DNA from: Cladochytrium replicatum
Lineage: Eukaryota > Chytridiomycota > Chytridiomycetes > Cladochytriales > Cladochytriaceae
DNA: 64,000 bases
Reading direction: 5' to 3'
Assembly (NCBI GenBank): GCA_025526935.1
Contig: JAHLKD010000107.1
Location: 115,646-179,645, forward strand
In this document: piece by piece, positions 34,042 to 64,000 of the stretch
How the letters are laid out: every line of letters begins with the position of its first letter
Position numbering within the stretch: position 1 is the first letter of the stretch
Program-made: the position numbers and the translations under genes
The notes under the pieces: generated by a model
What the model saw: only the letters and a program-made list of their open reading frames with translations
What the model was told of the DNA's origin: nothing
Database searches by the model: none

Positions 34042-35901
34042 TCAATCATCATCCTCCCATTTCAAAACTGGTGGAGCATCGGCAGATCCAAGCCGTTCAG
34101 CAGAAGTCGCTCTCCTGTGGTGGTTCGTCGCATCCGTCCACGCTCTGACCCGTGGTCGCACAAACGACGGTGACTGAATGATGTCCGGCAAGTGGACGCT
34201 CTGTGGAGAATCAACTTCGTCCCACACACCAGAGAAACGAGCAAACTCTTCCGTCTCCCCTGACACAAGCTCCGACACCTCCAGATCATCATTTGCAAAA
34301 ATCTTTAATGCGGTTGCAGTTTCCTCCCCTTTCCACTTCACCGCCCTCGTCCAGCACAACACCTCGCTCACGTCCATCGGCATCTCCCGGTCACCGACCA
34401 CGCATGTCGCAGTGGCCTTTCTGAGATGCATGCCCGCCTTCCCGGGTATCAGGGACATGACCTTGAACTTCCCCGGCGAGGACGTGACCGTTCCCGTGCG
34501 CGCGAATACGCTCCACGTCGACAAAGTACCGCTACTGCTCTCCGGGATCACGACCTTGCTGACAACGCACCTGGCGAGCGCGAGTGCACCTGCTCCGTCT
34601 GCGGGGCTCTCGCGACCCACGAACACTGCGTTGGGCGGAACACCGCGTGTCGTTTTGACCCAGCGGAGCACGGTCCCTTTAACTTCGGTTCGACGTGCTA
34701 GCGGTTGTGGGGCAGGTACGATTGGGGTGTACACGTCACACAAGCTACTGCGTTCCAAACGCTCTCGCTCGGTGTCCTCCGCCATCGACATGACGGTCTT
34801 TTCATCGTCCATGTCGGTGGTCATTGGCGGCGATGAGAGGCATAGGATTTCAAATGAATCGACGCTGACAGCACGACCGTTGTAGGCGATCAGTGCGATT
34901 CGCCCGTCATCATTGCAGTATCCAATGTGCAGGCCAGAGCTTCCAGTAGATGGGTTGGTTAGGACGGCTCGGATGCTGTAGAGACTGCCGAGCAGCGGGT
35001 CAAATCCCATCGGCCACGCGTCGGACGGGAACTCGGTCAAGATATCGGGTGGTTCATGGTGTTCACCAGATTTTTCAAGAGCTGCAATGGTCACGAAGGG
35101 GCGGTAGGTTAGCCCCACGTTTGTTGATAGGAGATTGTTGAAGTGTCGGCCGGCAGATGTGAGGGACGGGAACTCTCGATTTGGCGTCTTTTGCTGTCGG
35201 GAGCTATATGGAAACCAAGATGGCGGTATGGGTGCGGGGTCTGTGATGAAATGTGTGACGGAAGCTCGGAAGGTGCAGAGTGGTGGGTGGTCTTTTGGTG
35301 CGGTTCCGAAATGGGTAACGAGGAAAATGTAACGACCGTATCCCAGGGAAAGTCTCGTCATGTAGTGAGTCTCGATATGCCCTCCGACAGCTTGCGTTGA
35401 ACTAGTTTTCTCCTCGTCCTCCGCTTTCGCTTCACTGGCCAAGTCCAGATTCGACCCAAACGGTGTCGTCGACGCCGAACGCATCTGCGGCCTCCCCGCC
35501 AAGGACTCCGTCGACGGCAAAGGATCCTCTGTCTCTACCTCGAATTTTATCTCCTCGGTCAGCTGGTAATTCCAGCTCGAAGGAGGCGAGTCGCCGCCTT
35601 GCGACACTCGCACCGAGAGCACAGGGCTGTCGGAGATCAGGCGGAAGTAGCATGCAGAAGGCGGATCCTCAGCGAAACCCTTCCCGCGATCTTTCGGCCA
35701 GTAATCGAACACGTACAGCTTTTGTGTTGGTGCCGATGCAGATGCACGTCGGCCAAGCAACGAAGACGCGCCATACACCGAGATTGTGCCGGTGTCCCAC
35801 CGGTTAAGAACGAGGCGCTTTGCGGATCTGCTTGCGGGATGTGCTGGCGAGCGGTAGGTGACCGTCCGTGGGGGAAGAGCGGGTGGACTCACAGGGGCCA
35901 T
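34042..35901 (-). CDS. DM9-repeat (DUF3421-like) protein
   Basis: Single-exon, 619 aa, no signal peptide or transmembrane helix. Residues 30-220 form an unrecognised beta-rich domain (VLNRWDTGTISVYG, KLYVFDYWPKD, RYIFLVTHFG). Two DM9-like blocks follow: about 303-353 (GSLYSIRAVL, then SGLHIGYC, then VDSFEIL) and about 413-517 (RWVKTTRGVPPNAVFVG, ARCVVSK, PGKFKV, then VSEVLCW). The order W, G-x-P-x-N-A-V-x-x-G, RA/RC, PGK and a closing [FS]E[IV]L matches DM9 repeats, which in animals include mannose-binding lectins. The acidic linker at 360-390 separates them. A carbohydrate-binding or recognition role is inference. C-terminal residues 540-619 look disordered. The N-terminal domain is new to me. 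Confidence 0.6.
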   Translation of the reverse strand: MAPVSPPALPPRTVTYRSPAHPASRSAKRLVLNRWDTGTISVYGASSLLGRRASASAPTQKLYVFDYWPKDRGKGFAEDPPSACYFRLISDSPVLSVRVSQGGDSPPSSWNYQLTEEIKFEVETEDPLPSTESLAGRPQMRSASTTPFGSNLDLASEAKAEDEEKTSSTQAVGGHIETHYMTRLSLGYGRYIFLVTHFGTAPKDHPPLCTFRASVTHFITDPAPIPPSWFPYSSRQQKTPNREFPSLTSAGRHFNNLLSTNVGLTYRPFVTIAALEKSGEHHEPPDILTEFPSDAWPMGFDPLLGSLYSIRAVLTNPSTGSSGLHIGYCNDDGRIALIAYNGRAVSVDSFEILCLSSPPMTTDMDDEKTVMSMAEDTERERLERSSLCDVYTPIVPAPQPLARRTEVKGTVLRWVKTTRGVPPNAVFVGRESPADGAGALALARCVVSKVVIPESSSGTLSTWSVFARTGTVTSSPGKFKVMSLIPGKAGMHLRKATATCVVGDREMPMDVSEVLCWTRAVKWKGEETATALKIFANDDLEVSELVSGETEEFARFSGVWDEVDSPQSVHLPDIIQSPSFVRPRVRAWTDATNHHRRATSAERLGSADAPPVLKWEDDD

Positions 35902-55453: not shown

Positions 55454-58322
55454 AAGTGGACGAAGGCTATCAATTGCAAGATCAAGCAGAAGCTGTAAAA
55501 GAGGAACAGGAACAGGAGGTAACAATATGTCAAGACGCAAACATTCTGAAACATGAGATCTAGAGAGAGTTGCAGCGCGGCAGAGACAACACTGCTTGCG
55601 GGGGATAAAACAAACGTCCCAGACGATACCGCAGATGCCTCGTATTGACGAAATAGGGAAGCATGGAGGAGCAATTGCTAGCGCATGAGGGTGGGCAGAT
55701 GCAAGCGGAGCAAAGCTAGCAGCTATAGAACCATAGGCAGATGAGGCTAATTGGTGAAAGTGATTTGCGATAACATCAGAAGGTTTGGGAACTACAACAT
55801 TTGCTGCTGGGAAGAGGAAGGGATTGTTGAAGGAACAGGAGAACAACGAAAATGCTTTCCCTGGTGAAGAAAGAATGACAACATAGAGTGAACCATATAA
55901 GGGGCATCATCATCCAACCAATGATGAAACATCTGAAACTGCAGATATTGAAGCCGAAACTGAAGGTTAGGAAATTTAAAAAACAGCAAAACCCCAGCAA
56001 TTGAAGTGGAAAATGACAGGCGAAGAAATCTACACAAACTTTGGTGAATAAAAGTCCGAACTGGTTTGCAAACAGCAACAGAGGGAAGAATAACATATAA
56101 ACCAAATTCAAGCGTAGGTCCAATAAAAAACGAAAACAAATGACGAACCACAGCCAGGGTTTGACCATGAAGAAGCAAAGGCAAATTAGCAGGAATGTGA
56201 ATTCTTGTGAGAATTACAGACTTCAAAGGAGCAAAAGAAAAACCACGAGCTTGGGCAAGCTGTTCACAAACAGAGAGAAGAACCTGCATAGCATCCAAAG
56301 GAAGTGCAAACAAAGCCAAATCATCTGCAAATAAAAATGAATTGTATTGTGGTTTGGCAGGATGAAAGAGTGTTATAGGTGGGGCAAATGGACGGAGGAG
56401 CCCAGGTAGAGGATCAAGAAAAGTGATATAGAGAAGTGGACTGAGAACAGAACCTTGAAACAACCTCTAAACAAAATCAAAAGTATCTGAAAAACAAATT
56501 GCAACAACCACTCTGGAAGAACAAAAATCAAACAGAGACTTCAAAACAAAAACAAATGGCAACGGTCCTACCCTAGAAAGAAGCTCAGCCCAAAGAATTG
56601 CACGATTTGTGGTGCTTGAAAATCCAAAAAACCAGCAACCCAAGGAACCTTGGCATTAGACGCACAGGAGGTACATGCCTGAAGACCAAAAACACATTCC
56701 ATTCCTGAGCGGTGTGACTGAAATCCCGCTTGGGCAGCATCAAGTGGGCGTTGAGACGTGATAGCAGAATAAAGATGTGGCAACAAAGCTCGCTCAAAAA
56801 TTTTTCGGGCAACACACGAAAGAGTAATGGGGCGATAATTAGTAATGTCACCAAGCGTACCACGTTGCTTCCAAACTGGGTGAAAAAGCCCAAGATTCCA
56901 TGAAGTGGGTGTAAGACTACTGCGAAAAACGGACTGAGAAAGTTGCAAGAACAATGGAGCAAGAATAGCTGAAATTGGGCGATAAAGTTCTGCAGGCACT
57001 AGACACTAGCAAAATGATCAGCATATTTGGCTAAAGACTGAGGATCAAAATCTAAACCATTAGCTGAAGTACAAAAGTTAGCACAGCGCCGAGCATGAGA
57101 CACATGTTTCAGAAGAGAAGGCACTGATGAAGAACTAGGGTCATCAAAAAAAAATACTTTTGTCTTACGCCTGTGTGATCTCAGAGCTGATTTGAATACT
57201 TTGTGACTATCACGTTGGCGAGTTCTTAGAAAAGGAAGAAGAGGGTCAGAAGAATTGTGGTGCAAGAGAGAATAATAGTCACGGAATGCTGAACGAGCTT
57301 TCAGACGCAACAAAGCAATCTCAGGGGGAAGAGGAGTGGTCTCTGGTGCTAGACGACGAGGTGTTGGTGGTCCCAATGTCAGAACTGCTGCTGCCTCAAC
57401 AAAATCAACTATAATTTGAAATGCAGAATCAATTGCTTCCTGGGCCACTGCACCGGAAAGAGAAGTCCCCACAGGGACCTGAAGTGGTTCCAATGCTGCT
57501 GTTAGTGCCTCGTTGGAGGATGCAGAATCTTAGCAGTTTCTCTGTACGACTTACGAATAACTTCATCCTTAACAATCGGAGATTCCAAGAAGGTAGAGGA
57601 GGAGGCACAGTGGCCTGAGGATTTGGGCCAGCTAAAGAAAATGAACAAGTCACTGCAAAATGGTCTGAAGGATGGGGAGCCATAGACTGGGGTTGATCAT
57701 GTACTAAATAAGAGGAAGCTGTCACATAAGTAGAAGCAAAAAACAAATCAATAATTGAACTCCCTAAGTGGGAACGAAAAGTTGGGCGACGAGCTGAAGA
57801 AGAAGCTGGGACAACCAATGAAAGTGAGTGGGCTGTAAAAAAAGGAAGAAGCGCTTTGGCACGGGCATTAGTAACATGATCACCAGTGCTCTGAGTTCTA
57901 AAATTGAAGTCACCCATCAAAACTACTGGTGTATCCGAATTCGAAACAAATTGAGGAAAATCAGATGCACCAAAACAGTCTTCTGTAGTCCAACGTGGGG
58001 GAAAATAAAATCCACCAATCACGATCTGACAAAACCTAAACCACAAACCAAACCCAGAAGGAACTGATGCAATCTACCTAAATTGATAAGTACTGCAACG
58101 ATGTGGGTTAATAAGAAGAGCAACACCAGATGCCAAAGGAGCGTCTGGTGGAGGACGAGAATCAAACAACAAATACTCATAAGAAACACTGTCTAAAGTT
58201 AACTGATGAGTTTCGGTTAAAACTACAAAATCAAGCTGATGAGTACCAAGCCAAGCAGGTAAATCTGAAAAATCCAGAGGCAAACCTCTACAGTTGAAGG
58301 TTCCAGAACGAAAAGTCCACAT
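55454..58322 (-). pseudogene. LINE copy 1 ORF2 (APE endonuclease-reverse transcriptase), broken
   Basis: Starts with ATG at 58322, overlapping the ORF1 stop. The endonuclease keeps TFNCRGLPL, LTETHQ, GDFNFRTQS and SDHFAV but is stopped by a TAG near 58074 where copy 2 reads Leu. RT pieces follow in several frames: NYRPITLSCVARK, AGFQSHRSGME, GSVLSPLLY and FADDLALF (about 56310-56335). Three internal deletions remove finger/thumb segments, and the C-terminus (beyond CCLCRAATLSRSHVSEC) is lost. It encodes no working protein. Confidence 0.88.
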
Positions 58323-59524
58323 TAATTGCGAGATGTAGGTTCAGAACGTGAAGAACGGGCTAAAGAAACAGTAGCTTCAAAGTCTGCAGCAGGAAGATTA
58401 GAACGAAGATAATGAAAAACTGCAGGATCATGAGTAATTCGCAAGAGGTGAGCAAATCTTTTGTGAACAGCCTTTGCTACAGCAACTTGACGTTGCTCAA
58501 GTGATTGAACAGACCCAGAACGAAGCTGCCCAGGGTCAAAAAGATCAACGGGCACCTCATCACCTGGAAAAATGTCCTTGCGGAGCTTGTCAGCACAGTC
58601 AGAAGTACAAAAAAACTCAGCAGTGTTACGCCCAATAAAACTAATATGGCGAATGTCACGCGAAAATTGAGGGTTTCCAGAAATTCGATTAATCAGAGTG
58701 CGGAGCTGATTAAGTGGCTGACGACTAATTTCCTTAAACCTCACAGTAGCAAAACCAGCAGCACAATCATGAACAGGCTGAGGAGCATTGATCAAAATTG
58801 GTGACTCAGCCGGGTAATCAATCACCAATCTGGGTGGCTGTAGTGATCTGCGAGATAGGGGGTCCACTCCAGCAACCACTGAGCGATAAAGGGCGGGTTG
58901 AGCATCTGCTTCGGCAGCTTCAATACGAACAATAGCATTTGATGCACGAGAGGCAAATTTTGCAGTGCTGAAAGGCCCAGGATTGCGAGTAGCAGGGGCA
59001 GGTGGCGGTCGGCTAGCACTCGCAACTTGAGCATAGGAAGGCACGGCAGAGACAGCAGCAGGAGGGCAGCTGATAGTTTCAACCAACGGAACTACAGCAA
59101 TAGTCAATGCAGCAAAGAAGGCAGCCTCAGTTTCTGGTTCCAATACTGGGAGAAATTGCATTGCACGAGTGAAAGCAGACATCACTAATGGATGAGATCC
59201 AGAAGTTTGAGCAGGGGCCAGCATATGCAGAGCATCCAAGAATCGGTCACAAGGAGTGGGCAAGGGAGAGGTAGCATGATCAGCTGCAGAGGCATTCTTC
59301 TCGACCCTGGCACGAGAGGCAGGTCGGTGAGTCGGGGGTGATTTTGAGGCTTGACGTTTCCCTTTGGGATCAGCATCAGCAATGGTAAGTGACATTTCGA
59401 CTGTATCATTCATGTGAACATCAACGACACTTGCGGGGGATCTTCCTCTAATTCGAGCCGGTTCTGAAGTGGATGATGCTTGATCACGTGATCGGCGGTC
59501 AGGTGATTTGCGAGGAGAATTCAC
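58322..59524 (-). CDS. LINE copy 1 ORF1 protein, intact frame
   Basis: 400-aa open frame, first ORF of the retrotransposon; ORF1 proteins bind element RNA. The N-terminal half is basic and Ser/Pro/Ala-rich (disordered); a hydrophobic Ala/Val/Pro segment follows around residues 100-160. Residues 255-345 (VRFKEISRQPLNQLRTLINR, IRHISFIGRNTAEFFCTS) look like an RRM-type fold. I see no CCHC zinc knuckle. The stop codon TAA shares its final A with the ATG of ORF2 (TAATG, 58324-58320). The frame remains open although ORF2 is dead. Confidence 0.8.
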   Translation of the reverse strand: MNSPRKSPDRRSRDQASSTSEPARIRGRSPASVVDVHMNDTVEMSLTIADADPKGKRQASKSPPTHRPASRARVEKNASAADHATSPLPTPCDRFLDALHMLAPAQTSGSHPLVMSAFTRAMQFLPVLEPETEAAFFAALTIAVVPLVETISCPPAAVSAVPSYAQVASASRPPPAPATRNPGPFSTAKFASRASNAIVRIEAAEADAQPALYRSVVAGVDPLSRRSLQPPRLVIDYPAESPILINAPQPVHDCAAGFATVRFKEISRQPLNQLRTLINRISGNPQFSRDIRHISFIGRNTAEFFCTSDCADKLRKDIFPGDEVPVDLFDPGQLRSGSVQSLEQRQVAVAKAVHKRFAHLLRITHDPAVFHYLRSNLPAADFEATVSLARSSRSEPTSRN

Positions 59525-59740
59525 TTCATCTGCCCACAGAAAATTTTCTCCATCAAAGTTGCTGGGCTGAGAGTCAGGAATGTTTTCCTGATAGGCGCGA
59601 GTGTGGGACAGAGAGGGAGCACGGGAGCGAGCACGGCCAGAAGCGATGAAAATTTTTGAGGGGGGTTAGTCAGGCGGCGCGGCAGGCGGCGCGTCAGGCG
59701 GCTGCGCAGGCGGAGCGCTGGGAGGCGGCATTGATTTTTG

Positions 59741-59744
59741 AGAG

Positions 59745-59792
<48 letters not shown>

Positions 59793-59893
59793 CAGAGAGA
59801 CAGAGAGACAGAGAGACAGAGAGACAGAGAGACAGAGAGACAGAGAGACAGAGAGACAGAGAGACAGAGAGACAGAGAGACAGAGAGAGAAAG
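59741..59893. repeat. GA-rich microsatellite, 8-nt unit
   Basis: Begins as plain GA dinucleotides (about 59746-59785) and continues as an 8-nt unit GACAGAGA repeated about 13 times to 59890. It separates the poly-A end of LINE copy 2 from the 5' UTR of copy 1. Open frames through it (RDRETERQ repeats or SLCLSVSL) are repeat artefacts. Confidence 0.95.
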
Positions 59894-60142
59894 CAAATTA
59901 TTTTTTTTTTTTTTTTTTTTTAACAATATTATTATTTATTTTGCACATACAGTGCATAACAAAAAACAACACCCAAAGTGCCTTACAAGATGGTCATGGA
60001 CCAGCACATAGGGAAGCGCGCGCAGCATAAGGAAAAGCAACAAAGCAAAACAGAGAATGTAAACTCAAACCTGTGGCAACCCGTCAGATACTGCTAAGGT
60101 GCCAAAAAACAGGTGAGTAATAAATAATGAGAAAAGAAAACG

Positions 60143-63100
60143 TTAAAGATCCACAAATGCAGGGCCAAAGAGGGAGTCTGGAGGGGAAACTTCTAATGGC
60201 AGACCCATACAGTGAAGCCAAATCTTATGGAGACAACGAAAAACTAGATACCACGGTGCAAGATTCGCTGCGTTGACAATGCGAAGTGGACGAAGGCTAT
60301 CAATTGCAACGTCAAGCGGAAGTTGTAAAACAGGAACAGGAACAGGAGGCAACAATAGGTCAAGACGCAAACATTCTGAAACATGAGATCTAGAGAGAGT
60401 TGCAGTGCGGCAGTGACAACACTGCTTGCGGGGGTGATAAAACAAACGTCCAAGGCGATACTGCAGAAGCCTCAAGATTGACGAAATAGGGAAGCATGGA
60501 GGAGCAATTGCTAGCGCATGAGGGTGTGCAGATGCAAGGGGAGCAAAGCTAGCAGCTATAGAACCATAGGCAGATGAGGCTACTTGGTGAAAGTGATTTG
60601 CGATAACATCAGAAGGTTTGGGAACTACAACATTTGCAGCCGGGAAGAGGAAGTGATTGTTGAAAGGGACAGGAGAACAACGAAAGTGCTTTCCCTGGTG
60701 AAGAAAGAATGACAACATAGAGTGAACCATATCAGGGGCATCATCATCCAGCCAACGTTGAAACATCTGAAACTGCAGATATTGAAGCCGAAACTGAAGG
60801 TCAGGAAACTTAAAAAACAGTAAAACCCCAGCAATTGAAGTGGAAAATGAAAGGCGAAGAAATCGACACAAACATTGGTGAATAAAAGTCCGAACTGGTT
60901 TGCAAACAGCAACAGAGGGAAGAATAAAATATAAACCAAATTCAAGCGTAGGTCGAATAAAAGACAAAAACAAATGACGAACCACAACCAGAGAATGAGA
61001 ACCAAACATCCTTGAAAAAGAAAGCAAAGCAAAAGAAGCTGCGCGCGCTTTGGCAAGTCGATGGGAAATAGTCAGTGAAACATCAAATCCAGTATCTCCA
61101 AAAAAGCAACCCAGATAACGAAATGAAGGCTTGACAGGCAGAGGTTGACCATGAAGAAGCAAAGGCGAATGAGCAGGAATAGGAATTTTTGTGAGAATCA
61201 CAGACTTCAAAGGAGCAAAAGAAAAACCACGAGCTTGGGCAAACTGGTCACAAACAGAGAGAAGAACCTGCATAGCATCCAAAGTAATTGCAAACAAGGC
61301 CAAATCATCTGCAAATAAAAAAGAATTATATCGTGGTTTGGCAGGATGAAAGAGTGTTATAGGTGGGGCAAATGGTCGGAGGAGCCCAGGTAGAGGATCA
61401 AGAAAAGTGATATAGAGAAGTGGACTGAGAACAGAACCTTGAAACAAACCTCTAAACAAATCAAAAGCATCTGAAAAACAATTTGCAACAACCACTCTGG
61501 AAGAACAAAAATCAAACAGAGACTTCAAAACAAAAACAAATGGCAACGGTACTCCCCTAGAAAGAAGCTCAGCCCAAAGAATTGCACGATTTGTGGTGTC
61601 ATAAGCTGCTTGAATATCTAAAAAACCAGCAACCCAAGGAACCTTGGCATTAGACGCACGGGAGATACATGCCTGAAGACCAAAAACACATTCCATTCCC
61701 GAGCGGTGTGACTGAAATCCCGCTTGGGCAGCATCAAGTGGGCGTTGAGACGTGATAGCAGAATAAAGATGTGGCAACAAAGCTCGCTCAAAAATTTTTC
61801 GGGCAACACACGAAAGAGTAATGGGGCGATAATTAGTAATATCACCAAGCGTACCACGTTGCTTCCAAACTGGGTGCAAAAGCCCAAGATTCCATGAAGT
61901 GGGTGTAAGACTACTGCGAAAAATGGACTGAGAAAGTTGCAAGAACAATGGAGCAAGAATAGCTGAAATTGGGCGATAAAGTTCTGCAGGCAGACGATCA
62001 TGACCCGGGGCAGACTCCAAAGGGCAGTCCCTAATAGCTAGAACAAAAGCTTCAACATCCAATGGCAGCTGAAAATCACACAGAACAATTGAAGGTGAAA
62101 CTGGGTCAGCAGCTTGAGCATTGTAGACACTAGCAAAATGATCAGAATATTTGGCTAAAGACTGAGGATCAAAATCTAAACCATTAGCTGAAGTACGAAA
62201 GTTAGCGCAGCGCCGAGCATGAGACACATGTTTCAGAAGAGAAGGCACTGATGAAGAACTAGGGTCATCAAAAAAATTTGCTTTTGTCTTACGCCTGTGT
62301 GATCTCAGAGCTGATTTGAATGCTTTGTGACTATCACGTTGGCGAGTTCTTAGAAAAGGAAGAAGAGGGTCAGAAGAATTGTGGTGAAAGAGGGAATAAT
62401 AGTCACGGAATGCTGAACGAGCCTTACTACGCAACAAAGCAATCTCAGGGGGCAAAGGAGTGGTCGCTGGTGCTCTACGACGAGGTGTTGGTGGTCCCAA
62501 TGTCAGAACTGCTGTTGCCTCAACAAAATCAACTATAATTTGAAATGCAGGAATCAATTGCTCCCTGGGCCACTGCACGAGAAAGAGAAGTCCCCACAGG
62601 GACCTGAAGTGGTTCCAATGCTGCTGTTAGCGCCTCTGATGTAGGAGGAAGCAGAATCTTAGCAGTTTCTCTGTGCGACTTACGAATAACTTCATCCTTT
62701 AACAATGGGAGATTCCAAGAAGGTAGAGGAGGAGGCACAGTGGCCTGAGGATCTGGGCCAGCTAAAGAAAATGAACAGGTCACTGCAAAATGGTCTGAAG
62801 GATGGGGAGCCATAGACTGGGGTTGATCATGCACTAAATAAGAGGAAGCTGTCACATAAGTAGAAGCAAAAAACAAATCAATAATTGAACTCCCTAAGTG
62901 GGAACGAAAAGTTGGGCGACGAGCTGAAGAAGAAGCTGGGACAACCAATGAAAGTGAGTGGGCTGTAAAAAAAGGAAGAAGTGCTCTGGCATCGGGCATT
63001 AGTAACATGATCACCAGTGCTCTGAGTTCTAAAATTGAAGTCACCCATCAAAACTACTGGTGTATCCGAATTCGAAACAAATTGAGGAAAATCAGATAAT

Positions 63101-63456
63101 GCACCCAAACAGTCTTCCGCAGTCCAACGTGGGGGAAAATAAAATCCACCAATCACGACCTGACGAAACCTAAACCACAAACCAAACCCAGAAGGAACTG
63201 ATGCAATCAACCTAAATTGATAAGTACTGCAACGATGTGGGTTAATAAGAAGAGCAACACCAGATGCCAAAGGAGCGTCTGGTGGAGGACGAGAATCAAA
63301 CAACAAATACTCAGAAGAAACACTGTCTAAAGTTAACTGATGAGTTTCTGTTAAAACTAAAAAATCAAGCTGATGAGTAACAAGCCAAGCAAGTAAATCT
63401 GAAAAATCCAGAGGCAAACCTCTACAGTTGAAGGTTCCAGAACGAAAAGTCCACAT
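60143..63456 (-). pseudogene. LINE copy 2 ORF2 (APE endonuclease-reverse transcriptase), two frameshifts
   Basis: Endonuclease at the N-terminus (TFNCRGLPL, LTETHQ, GDFNFRTQS, SDHFAV), RT in the middle (NYRPITLSCVARK, AGFQSHRSGME, GFLDIQAAYDT with a catalytic Asp, GSVLSPLLY, FADDLALF at about 61320-61297) and a C-terminal C-x2-C-x8-H-x3-C knuckle (CHCRTATLSRSHVSEC) followed by about 70 residues. No RNase H domain is seen. Single-base insertions near 62992 and 62550, relative to copy 1, split the frame into three; the last piece is open for 811 codons. The FADD box has Phe where most RTs have Tyr. Confidence 0.88.
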
Positions 63457-64000
63457 TAATTGCGAGATGTAGGTTCAGAACGCGAAGAACGGGCTAAAGA
63501 AACAGTAGCTTCAAAGTCTGCAGCAGGAAGATTAGAACGAAGATAATGAAAAACTGCAGGATCATGAGTAATTCGCAAGAGGTGAGCAAATCTTTTGTGA
63601 ACAGCCTTTGCTACAGCAACTTGACGTTGCTCAAGTGATTGAACAGACCCAGAACGAAGCTGCCCAGGGTCAAAAAGATCAACGGGCACCTCATCACCTG
63701 GAAAAATGTCCTTGCGGAGCTTGTCAGCACAGTCAGAAGTACAAATAAACTCAGCAGTGTTACGCCCAATAAAACTAATATGGCGAATGTCACGGGAAAA
63801 TTGAGGGTTTCCAGAAATTCGATTAATCAGAGTGCGGAGCTGATTAAGTGGCTGACGACTAATTTCCTTAAACCTCACAGTAGCAAAACCAGCAGCCACG
63901 ATCACGAACAGGCTGAGGAGGATTGATCAAAATTGGTGACTCAGCCGGGTAATCAATCACCAATCTGGGTGGCCGTAGTGATCTGCGAGATAGGGGGTCC
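63456..64000 (-). pseudogene. LINE copy 2 ORF1, partial and frameshifted
   Basis: C-terminal 140 or so residues match copy 1 ORF1 almost exactly (AGFATVRFKEISRQPL to EPTSRN). A one-base insertion near 63896 relative to copy 1 breaks the frame upstream, and the rest lies beyond the window. The stop again overlaps the ORF2 start as TAATG (63458-63454). Confidence 0.82.

Follow-up and report, generated by a model that had tools for sequence, protein, structure and literature searches.

Overlapping stop and start codons between the two reading frames of LINEs that often lie upstream of tRNA genes in a chytrid fungus

Two LINE families and their copies

The window analyzed here, a stretch of 64,000 nucleotides at one end of contig C107 in the Cladochytrium replicatum assembly (50.5 Mb, 198 contigs), carries two minus-strand copies of a long interspersed nuclear element (LINE) in which the stop codon of the first open reading frame (ORF1) overlaps the start codon of the second (ORF2) in the pentamer TAATG (Table 1). 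We designate the LINE family of these two copies B, and a sister LINE family of the same genome A. A first-pass annotation of the window had reported the pentamer in both copies, and both occurrences do lie at their minus-strand places. The bare pentamer is not enriched in the window (92 occurrences vs. 95.5 expected from shuffling), and the notable point is that it occurs precisely at the boundary between an open ORF1 and ORF2. The same annotation had described the copies as diverged, but blastn aligns them in three pieces at 94.1, 95.1, and 96.8% identity, so that conservation between them is a weak argument. Both copies are damaged. ORF1 of copy 1 (C107:173970) includes an internal stop, and its longest ATG-started open part spans positions 58322-59413 (363 amino acids). 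Copy 2 is 99.6% identical across 4104 bp to locus L033, which served as a family B copy below.

Table 1 LINE features in the 64,000-nucleotide window
Feature	Position	Strand	Remark
ORF2 region, copy 1, damaged	55454..58322	-	frame stays open for 82 codons past the ATG; lacks two internal segments and the 3' end
TAATG, copy 1	58320..58324	-	ORF1 stop TAA (58324-58322) shares one A with ORF2 ATG (58322-58320)
ORF1, copy 1	58322..59731	-	start ATG of the 473-residue form placed at 59731 by alignment; interrupted by one stop codon
Variable (CT/CTCTGTCT)n tract, 5' end of copy 1	59740..59893	-	directly before ORF1
3' untranslated region and poly(A), copy 2	59901..60142	-	head-to-tail with the 5' tract of copy 1
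ORF2, copy 2, endonuclease and reverse transcriptase	60143..63456	-	frame broken after 192 codons
TAATG, copy 2	63454..63458	-	
ORF1 3' part, copy 2	63456..64000	-	cut by the window and contig end

Family B copies were taken from the assembly as the best 40 of 148 candidates for a 301-base query spanning the ORF1-ORF2 junction. Open copies encode an ORF1 of 473 and an ORF2 of 1103 residues, the latter with domain matches to PF03372 (residues 7-222), PF14529 (105-225), and RVT_1 (539-783). This predicted order of endonuclease then reverse transcriptase identifies family B as a LINE, i.e., a non-long terminal repeat (non-LTR) retrotransposon, of the apurinic/apyrimidinic endonuclease (APE) type, in agreement with the first-pass annotation. 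The best Protein Data Bank (PDB) matches of ORF2 were L1 ORF2p and R2, with similar scores, while ORF1 had no match in Pfam or the PDB; an AlphaFold2 model of 242 residues of the window ORF1 (mean predicted local distance difference test score of 40) was not used. Exact open frames were found for the 473-residue ORF1 in 7 of the 40 copies, for the 1103-residue ORF2 in 6, and for both in 2. Poly(A) ends were present on part of the fetched copies, and 5'-truncated pieces of both families occur beside tRNAs, two further traits of such elements.

Family A was seen as a second LINE group, with higher scores, in an RVT_1 search (best 150 of 469 candidates), and three of its members (L048-L050) were read. 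The two families share 42% identity over 193 residues in the C-terminal part of ORF1, and 41.7% identity over the whole of the B ORF2. Their 5' ends are far closer, with 88% identity over 154 bp (L033 and L048; first ~150 bases of ORF1; window 59731-59660), and since the remaining protein sequences are ~42% identical or unaligned, a 5'-end exchange between the families is possible. In one family A copy (L050, C62:252600-258600), ORF1 and ORF2 form a single open frame of 1622 residues, which we treated as a mutant. An outlier reverse transcriptase match on contig C111, considered as a potential third family, turned out to be a 5'-truncated B copy, although a third family may exist among the other outlier matches.

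Position relative to tRNA genes

LINEs of both families, as well as a short interspersed nuclear element (SINE), sit upstream of tRNA genes and face away from them, which we consider a larger result than the overlap itself. ARAGORN, with introns allowed, detected a tRNA near 20 of the 43 fetched copies (17/40 for B, 3/3 for A; 19 of 42 loci without introns), and all 20 of these tRNAs are on the 5' side of the element and on the opposite strand. Only two of these 20 copies (L015 and L032) have flanks in common. The 20 copies start close to the gene: in nine of them, a CT-rich 5' tract begins 4, 10, 10, 12, 12, 12, 14, 16, or 39 bases from the tRNA 5' end predicted by ARAGORN, and in the other eleven, a truncated piece of A, B, or the SINE begins 6-12 bases (ten copies) or 31 bases (one copy) away. 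The element thus starts 4-16 bp from the mature tRNA in 18 of 20 cases (loci within L010-L050), next to tRNAs for at least 10 amino acids, and 31 and 39 bp away in the remaining two. No tRNA was found in the fetched flank of the other 23 B copies, nor in the window itself. In the window, the contig ends before the 5' flank of copy 2, and copy 1 has copy 2 as its 5' neighbor.

An independent check on coordinates alone gave the same polarity. Here, 62 tRNA matches (63 scored out of 2278 first-look candidates) were compared to 200 junctions, i.e., the best 100 of 122 places for B and the best 100 of 130 for A. Within 6 kb of these tRNAs, 23 junctions were upstream and in opposite orientation, compared to 2, 1, and 1 in the other three classes and 0.74 expected per class, and 21 of the 62 tRNAs had at least one such upstream-opposite junction.

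The CT-rich repeat, of very variable length, precedes the ORF1 start string wherever it was found (23/40 copies, and window 59740-59893), and seems to be the 5' untranslated region (UTR) of the element rather than its target. Some copies are arranged head-to-tail, the poly(A) of one copy abutting the CT tract of its neighbor (window 59921-59731, and the 3' flanks of L014, L023, and L047). Repeated landing of new copies at a single site near the tRNA would be expected to produce this arrangement. Telomere targeting had been raised by several copies near contig ends, and was dropped once the tRNA flanks were seen.

The SINE, ~285 bases long with a tRNA-like head, occurs at 13 places in 12 of the fetched loci (L011, L017, L023, L024, L026, L031, L036, L039, L042, L045, L048, and L050), including beside tRNA genes (L023, L048). 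Six of these places are 100% identical to the query stretch, its source L039 included. The SINE tail matches the family A 3' UTR at 31 of 33 bases and then at 38 of 52, from which we infer that family A mobilizes it.

The stop-start overlap and translation of ORF2

The overlap is present in both families, although in different bases. In family A, ORF1 stops at TGA, so that the overlap reads AUGA, and ORF2 is in the -1 frame relative to ORF1, as in B. The ORF2 starts align (MWTFRSGTFNCR vs. MISVRVGTFNCR), with M-x3-R-x-GTFNCR in common. When junctions were scanned with the overlap bases left free and up to 3 mismatches allowed, the best 100 of 130 A places included 99 CAATGA and 1 TAATGA, and the best 100 of 122 B places, with the pentamer left free, included 99 TAATG and 1 TAATT. 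The single TAATGA, in a family A copy at C98:205963, holds UAAUG and AUGA together, as a natural intermediate of the two overlap types. The first-pass annotation had read conservation of UAAUG as a sign of coupled translation; beyond family B the pentamer itself gives way to AUGA, while the overlap and frame are retained in the sister family. Because the overlap was kept while the pentamer changed, a conserved coupling architecture, and not a conserved pentamer, fits the data. The coupling idea is probably right, given that the sister family keeps the frame but overlaps in other bases.

We therefore favor, with a probability of about 0.74, translation of ORF2 by coupled termination-reinitiation at the stop-start overlap. 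After terminating ORF1 translation at the UAA, ribosomes would remain bound to the RNA and initiate again, in the -1 frame, at the AUG that overlaps the stop, with AUGA in place of UAAUG serving the same restart in family A. Such reinitiation would make the endonuclease/reverse transcriptase a minor product next to the ORF1 protein; both the rate and the low ORF2:ORF1 ratio are what we infer from this scheme. UAAUG and AUGA are both named as overlap forms for termination-reinitiation in a review (PMC5972666).

Several features of the junction bear on this choice. The ORF2 frame of the copies inspected (L033 in B; L048 and L049 in A) contains no AUG ahead of the overlapping one. This frame opens 6 codons upstream of that AUG in B and 37 in A, and the next in-frame methionine in B is residue 137, already within the endonuclease domain. 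From the ORF1 AUG (counted) to the ORF2 AUG there are 20 AUGs in B (L033) and 30 in A (L048). All of these lie outside the ORF2 frame, which makes leaky scanning implausible. The overlap of the two frames lacks an XXXYYYZ slippery heptamer both in B (19 nt including the stop) and in A (115 nt). Together, these observations on AUGs, frame, heptamers, and Met-137 favor a restart at the overlap over both leaky scanning and standard frameshifting. Both proteins also carry signs of selection: differences between open copies, counted at codons with one change only, gave a ratio of nonsynonymous to synonymous differences (pN/pS) of 0.38 for ORF2 (15 pairs) and 0.53 for ORF1 (21 pairs), which suggests purifying selection on each.

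Other observations weigh against coupled reinitiation, or remove support that it might have claimed. The first-pass annotation had proposed as a check that TAATG be invariant while its flanks vary, which proved to have no power. TAATG was found in 40/40 fetched B copies and was free of mismatches in all 195 cells, but equal invariance was seen in 426 of 600 neighboring 5-base windows, so that invariance inside family B is no evidence and carries no weight. The 40 copies are also biased toward conservation, because they were chosen as best matches to a junction query, and the best 100 junction places were likewise the best-matching ones, taken by fewest mismatches first. Among four copies with diverged ORF1, three have TAATG, one of them (L054) with changed flanks, which speaks for coupling, and the fourth (L051) has none of the searched junction strings. 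The pN/pS values come from copies chosen for open frames, and the divergence comparison involves two families of one genome.

The RNA around the junction adds to these points. A UGGGA (TGGGA, motif 1 of the termination upstream ribosomal binding site, TURBS) is absent from the 300 nt upstream in both L033 (B) and L048 (A). Downstream, 120-nt windows at 0, +30, and +60 were no more stable than shuffles in either family (z of +0.8, +1.5, and +1.2 in B; +0.5, +2.2, and +1.0 in A), with a +90 window mildly stable in B (z -1.6, 9th of 153) and at z +0.8 in A. Upstream, the window from -120 to 0 ranked 1st of 153 in A and 5th of 153 in B against dinucleotide shuffles. Synonymous-codon shuffles of the same 120 nt were as stable in 4/400 cases for A and 181/400 for B, and because they removed the B signal and left that of A, we do not claim an RNA structure common to both families. 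Overall, the upstream and downstream folding-stability windows revealed no RNA signal shared by A and B.

Three other explanations of ORF2 were weighed against these data. Programmed -1 frameshifting before the ORF1 stop would produce an ORF1-ORF2 fusion, and the -1 frame of ORF2 in both families is what it predicts; passages of a review state this mechanism for the Dictyostelium elements TRE5-A and TRE3-A (PMC5911963). However, the missing heptamer speaks against it, for standard slip sites at least, and a frameshifted ORF2 could do without a start codon, whereas both families have an AUG, at aligned positions, on the stop, so that we consider frameshifting unlikely. ORF2 might instead be started independently, from an internal ribosome entry site (IRES) or a shorter transcript, with the overlap reflecting mere compactness. 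IRES use may apply to R1/R2 elements, where it is described as unconfirmed in the relevant part of a review (PMC2881922), but overlap and frame were kept here across 42% protein identity even though the bases changed, and no strong structure is common to A and B; an independent start appears to us as improbable as a frameshift.

Least probable of all, in our estimation, is that the overlap is an inherited accident without function. The copies are young, so that their invariance proves nothing, and a single divergence, A vs. B, is informative. Yet ORF2 appears to be translated, as its pN/pS indicates, and the sole AUG that B offers upstream of the endonuclease domain is the overlapping one, beyond the reach of scanning.

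Related systems and wider context

The closest parallel for the overlap is SART1, a telomeric LINE of Bombyx mori for which UAAUG translational coupling is attributed to Kojima et al. 2005 in passages of two papers (PMC2881922, PMC5972666). Like SART1 as portrayed there, family B is a two-ORF LINE whose ORF1 stop and ORF2 start overlap in UAAUG. The elements described here differ in their fungal host, in the AUGA of the sister family, and in their association with tRNA genes instead of telomeres. SART1 is also described as needing a structure downstream of UAAUG (PMC5972666), and the analogy finds no support on RNA structure, because no downstream structure stands out in both of our families. 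The interpretation in the first-pass annotation is partly supported, with the LINE identity, the fungal host, and the overlap itself upheld. Overlapping stop-start sites, with reinitiation proposed, are likewise reported for hypoviruses and victoriviruses of fungi; these are RNA viruses, however, and the same source (PMC5972666) describes victoriviruses as depending on a short upstream stretch predicted to form a pseudoknot. Relatives of the LINE were sought in viral contigs, and none were found.

In their genomic position, the chytrid elements instead resemble dictyostelid retrotransposons. As outlined in parts of PMC5911963, Dictyostelium TRE5 elements likewise insert upstream of tRNA genes and are transcribed in the direction opposite to them, and they too have two ORFs, an APE and a reverse transcriptase in ORF2, and a poly(A) tail. 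The offset differs, since TRE5 inserts 44-54 bp upstream of tRNAs (PMC5911963, PMC5006619), a distance not seen here. NLTR-A of D. purpureum, described in the same sources as inserting 2-6 bp upstream, is closer in offset, and differs in having an RNase H. TRE5-A and TRE3-A are also said there to need a -1 frameshift, in contrast to the start codon overlapping the stop in our elements. Within fungi, Zorro3 of Candida albicans is an L1-like APE-type LINE with two ORFs and a poly(A) tail; as characterized in passages of PMC1965478, it differs by an A-rich spacer between the ORFs and by insertion in poly(A), with no tRNA association identified.

The non-LTR elements with a tRNA-gene habit in the consulted table entries of the review are all dictyostelid ones, and this source describes the targets of fungal retrotransposons, LINEs included, as not fully worked out, with RNA polymerase III (Pol III) targeting expected to feature (PMC5911963). 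Our search of open-license papers named no tRNA-targeting LINE of fungi among the matches listed. Among LTR-containing elements, Rhizopus Ty3-type elements are reported to co-localize with tRNA genes (PMC2699053, in the portion available).

Taken together, we consider it likely that families A and B, along with the SINE that has an A-like tail, belong to a fungal LINE lineage landing ~10 bp upstream of mature tRNAs, facing away from them, and producing ORF2 by stop-start reinitiation in which UAAUG and AUGA can be switched without a change of frame. Such a lineage would parallel the amoebal TRE elements within the fungi, while differing from them in targeting offset and in how ORF2 is expressed. 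If true, tRNA-gene targeting would extend the dictyostelid non-LTR habit to fungi, a group in which Pol III genes already serve as targets for LTR elements such as Ty1 and Ty3. It would also raise the question of whether Pol III factors such as TFIIIB are repeatedly recognized by unrelated retroelements. How the second ORF of a LINE is translated from one eukaryotic mRNA has been settled for few elements, and sister families with the same frame and different overlaps provide a natural pair for testing which bases matter, with an overlap that could be transferred to laboratory yeast.

The fungal nature of the host, also proposed in the first-pass annotation, is borne out by 24 places in the assembly that match the Fungal_trans domain, and by the mitochondrial uL6 (uL6m) encoded in the window, for which the closest PDB entry is 6ywe and the next 3j6b, which are from Neurospora and yeast, respectively. 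No hydrophobin match was obtained, a result that says nothing about the host phylum. Elsewhere in the window, positions 34042-35901 hold an ORF of 619 amino acids with a weak DM9 repeat match, here in a fungal genome.

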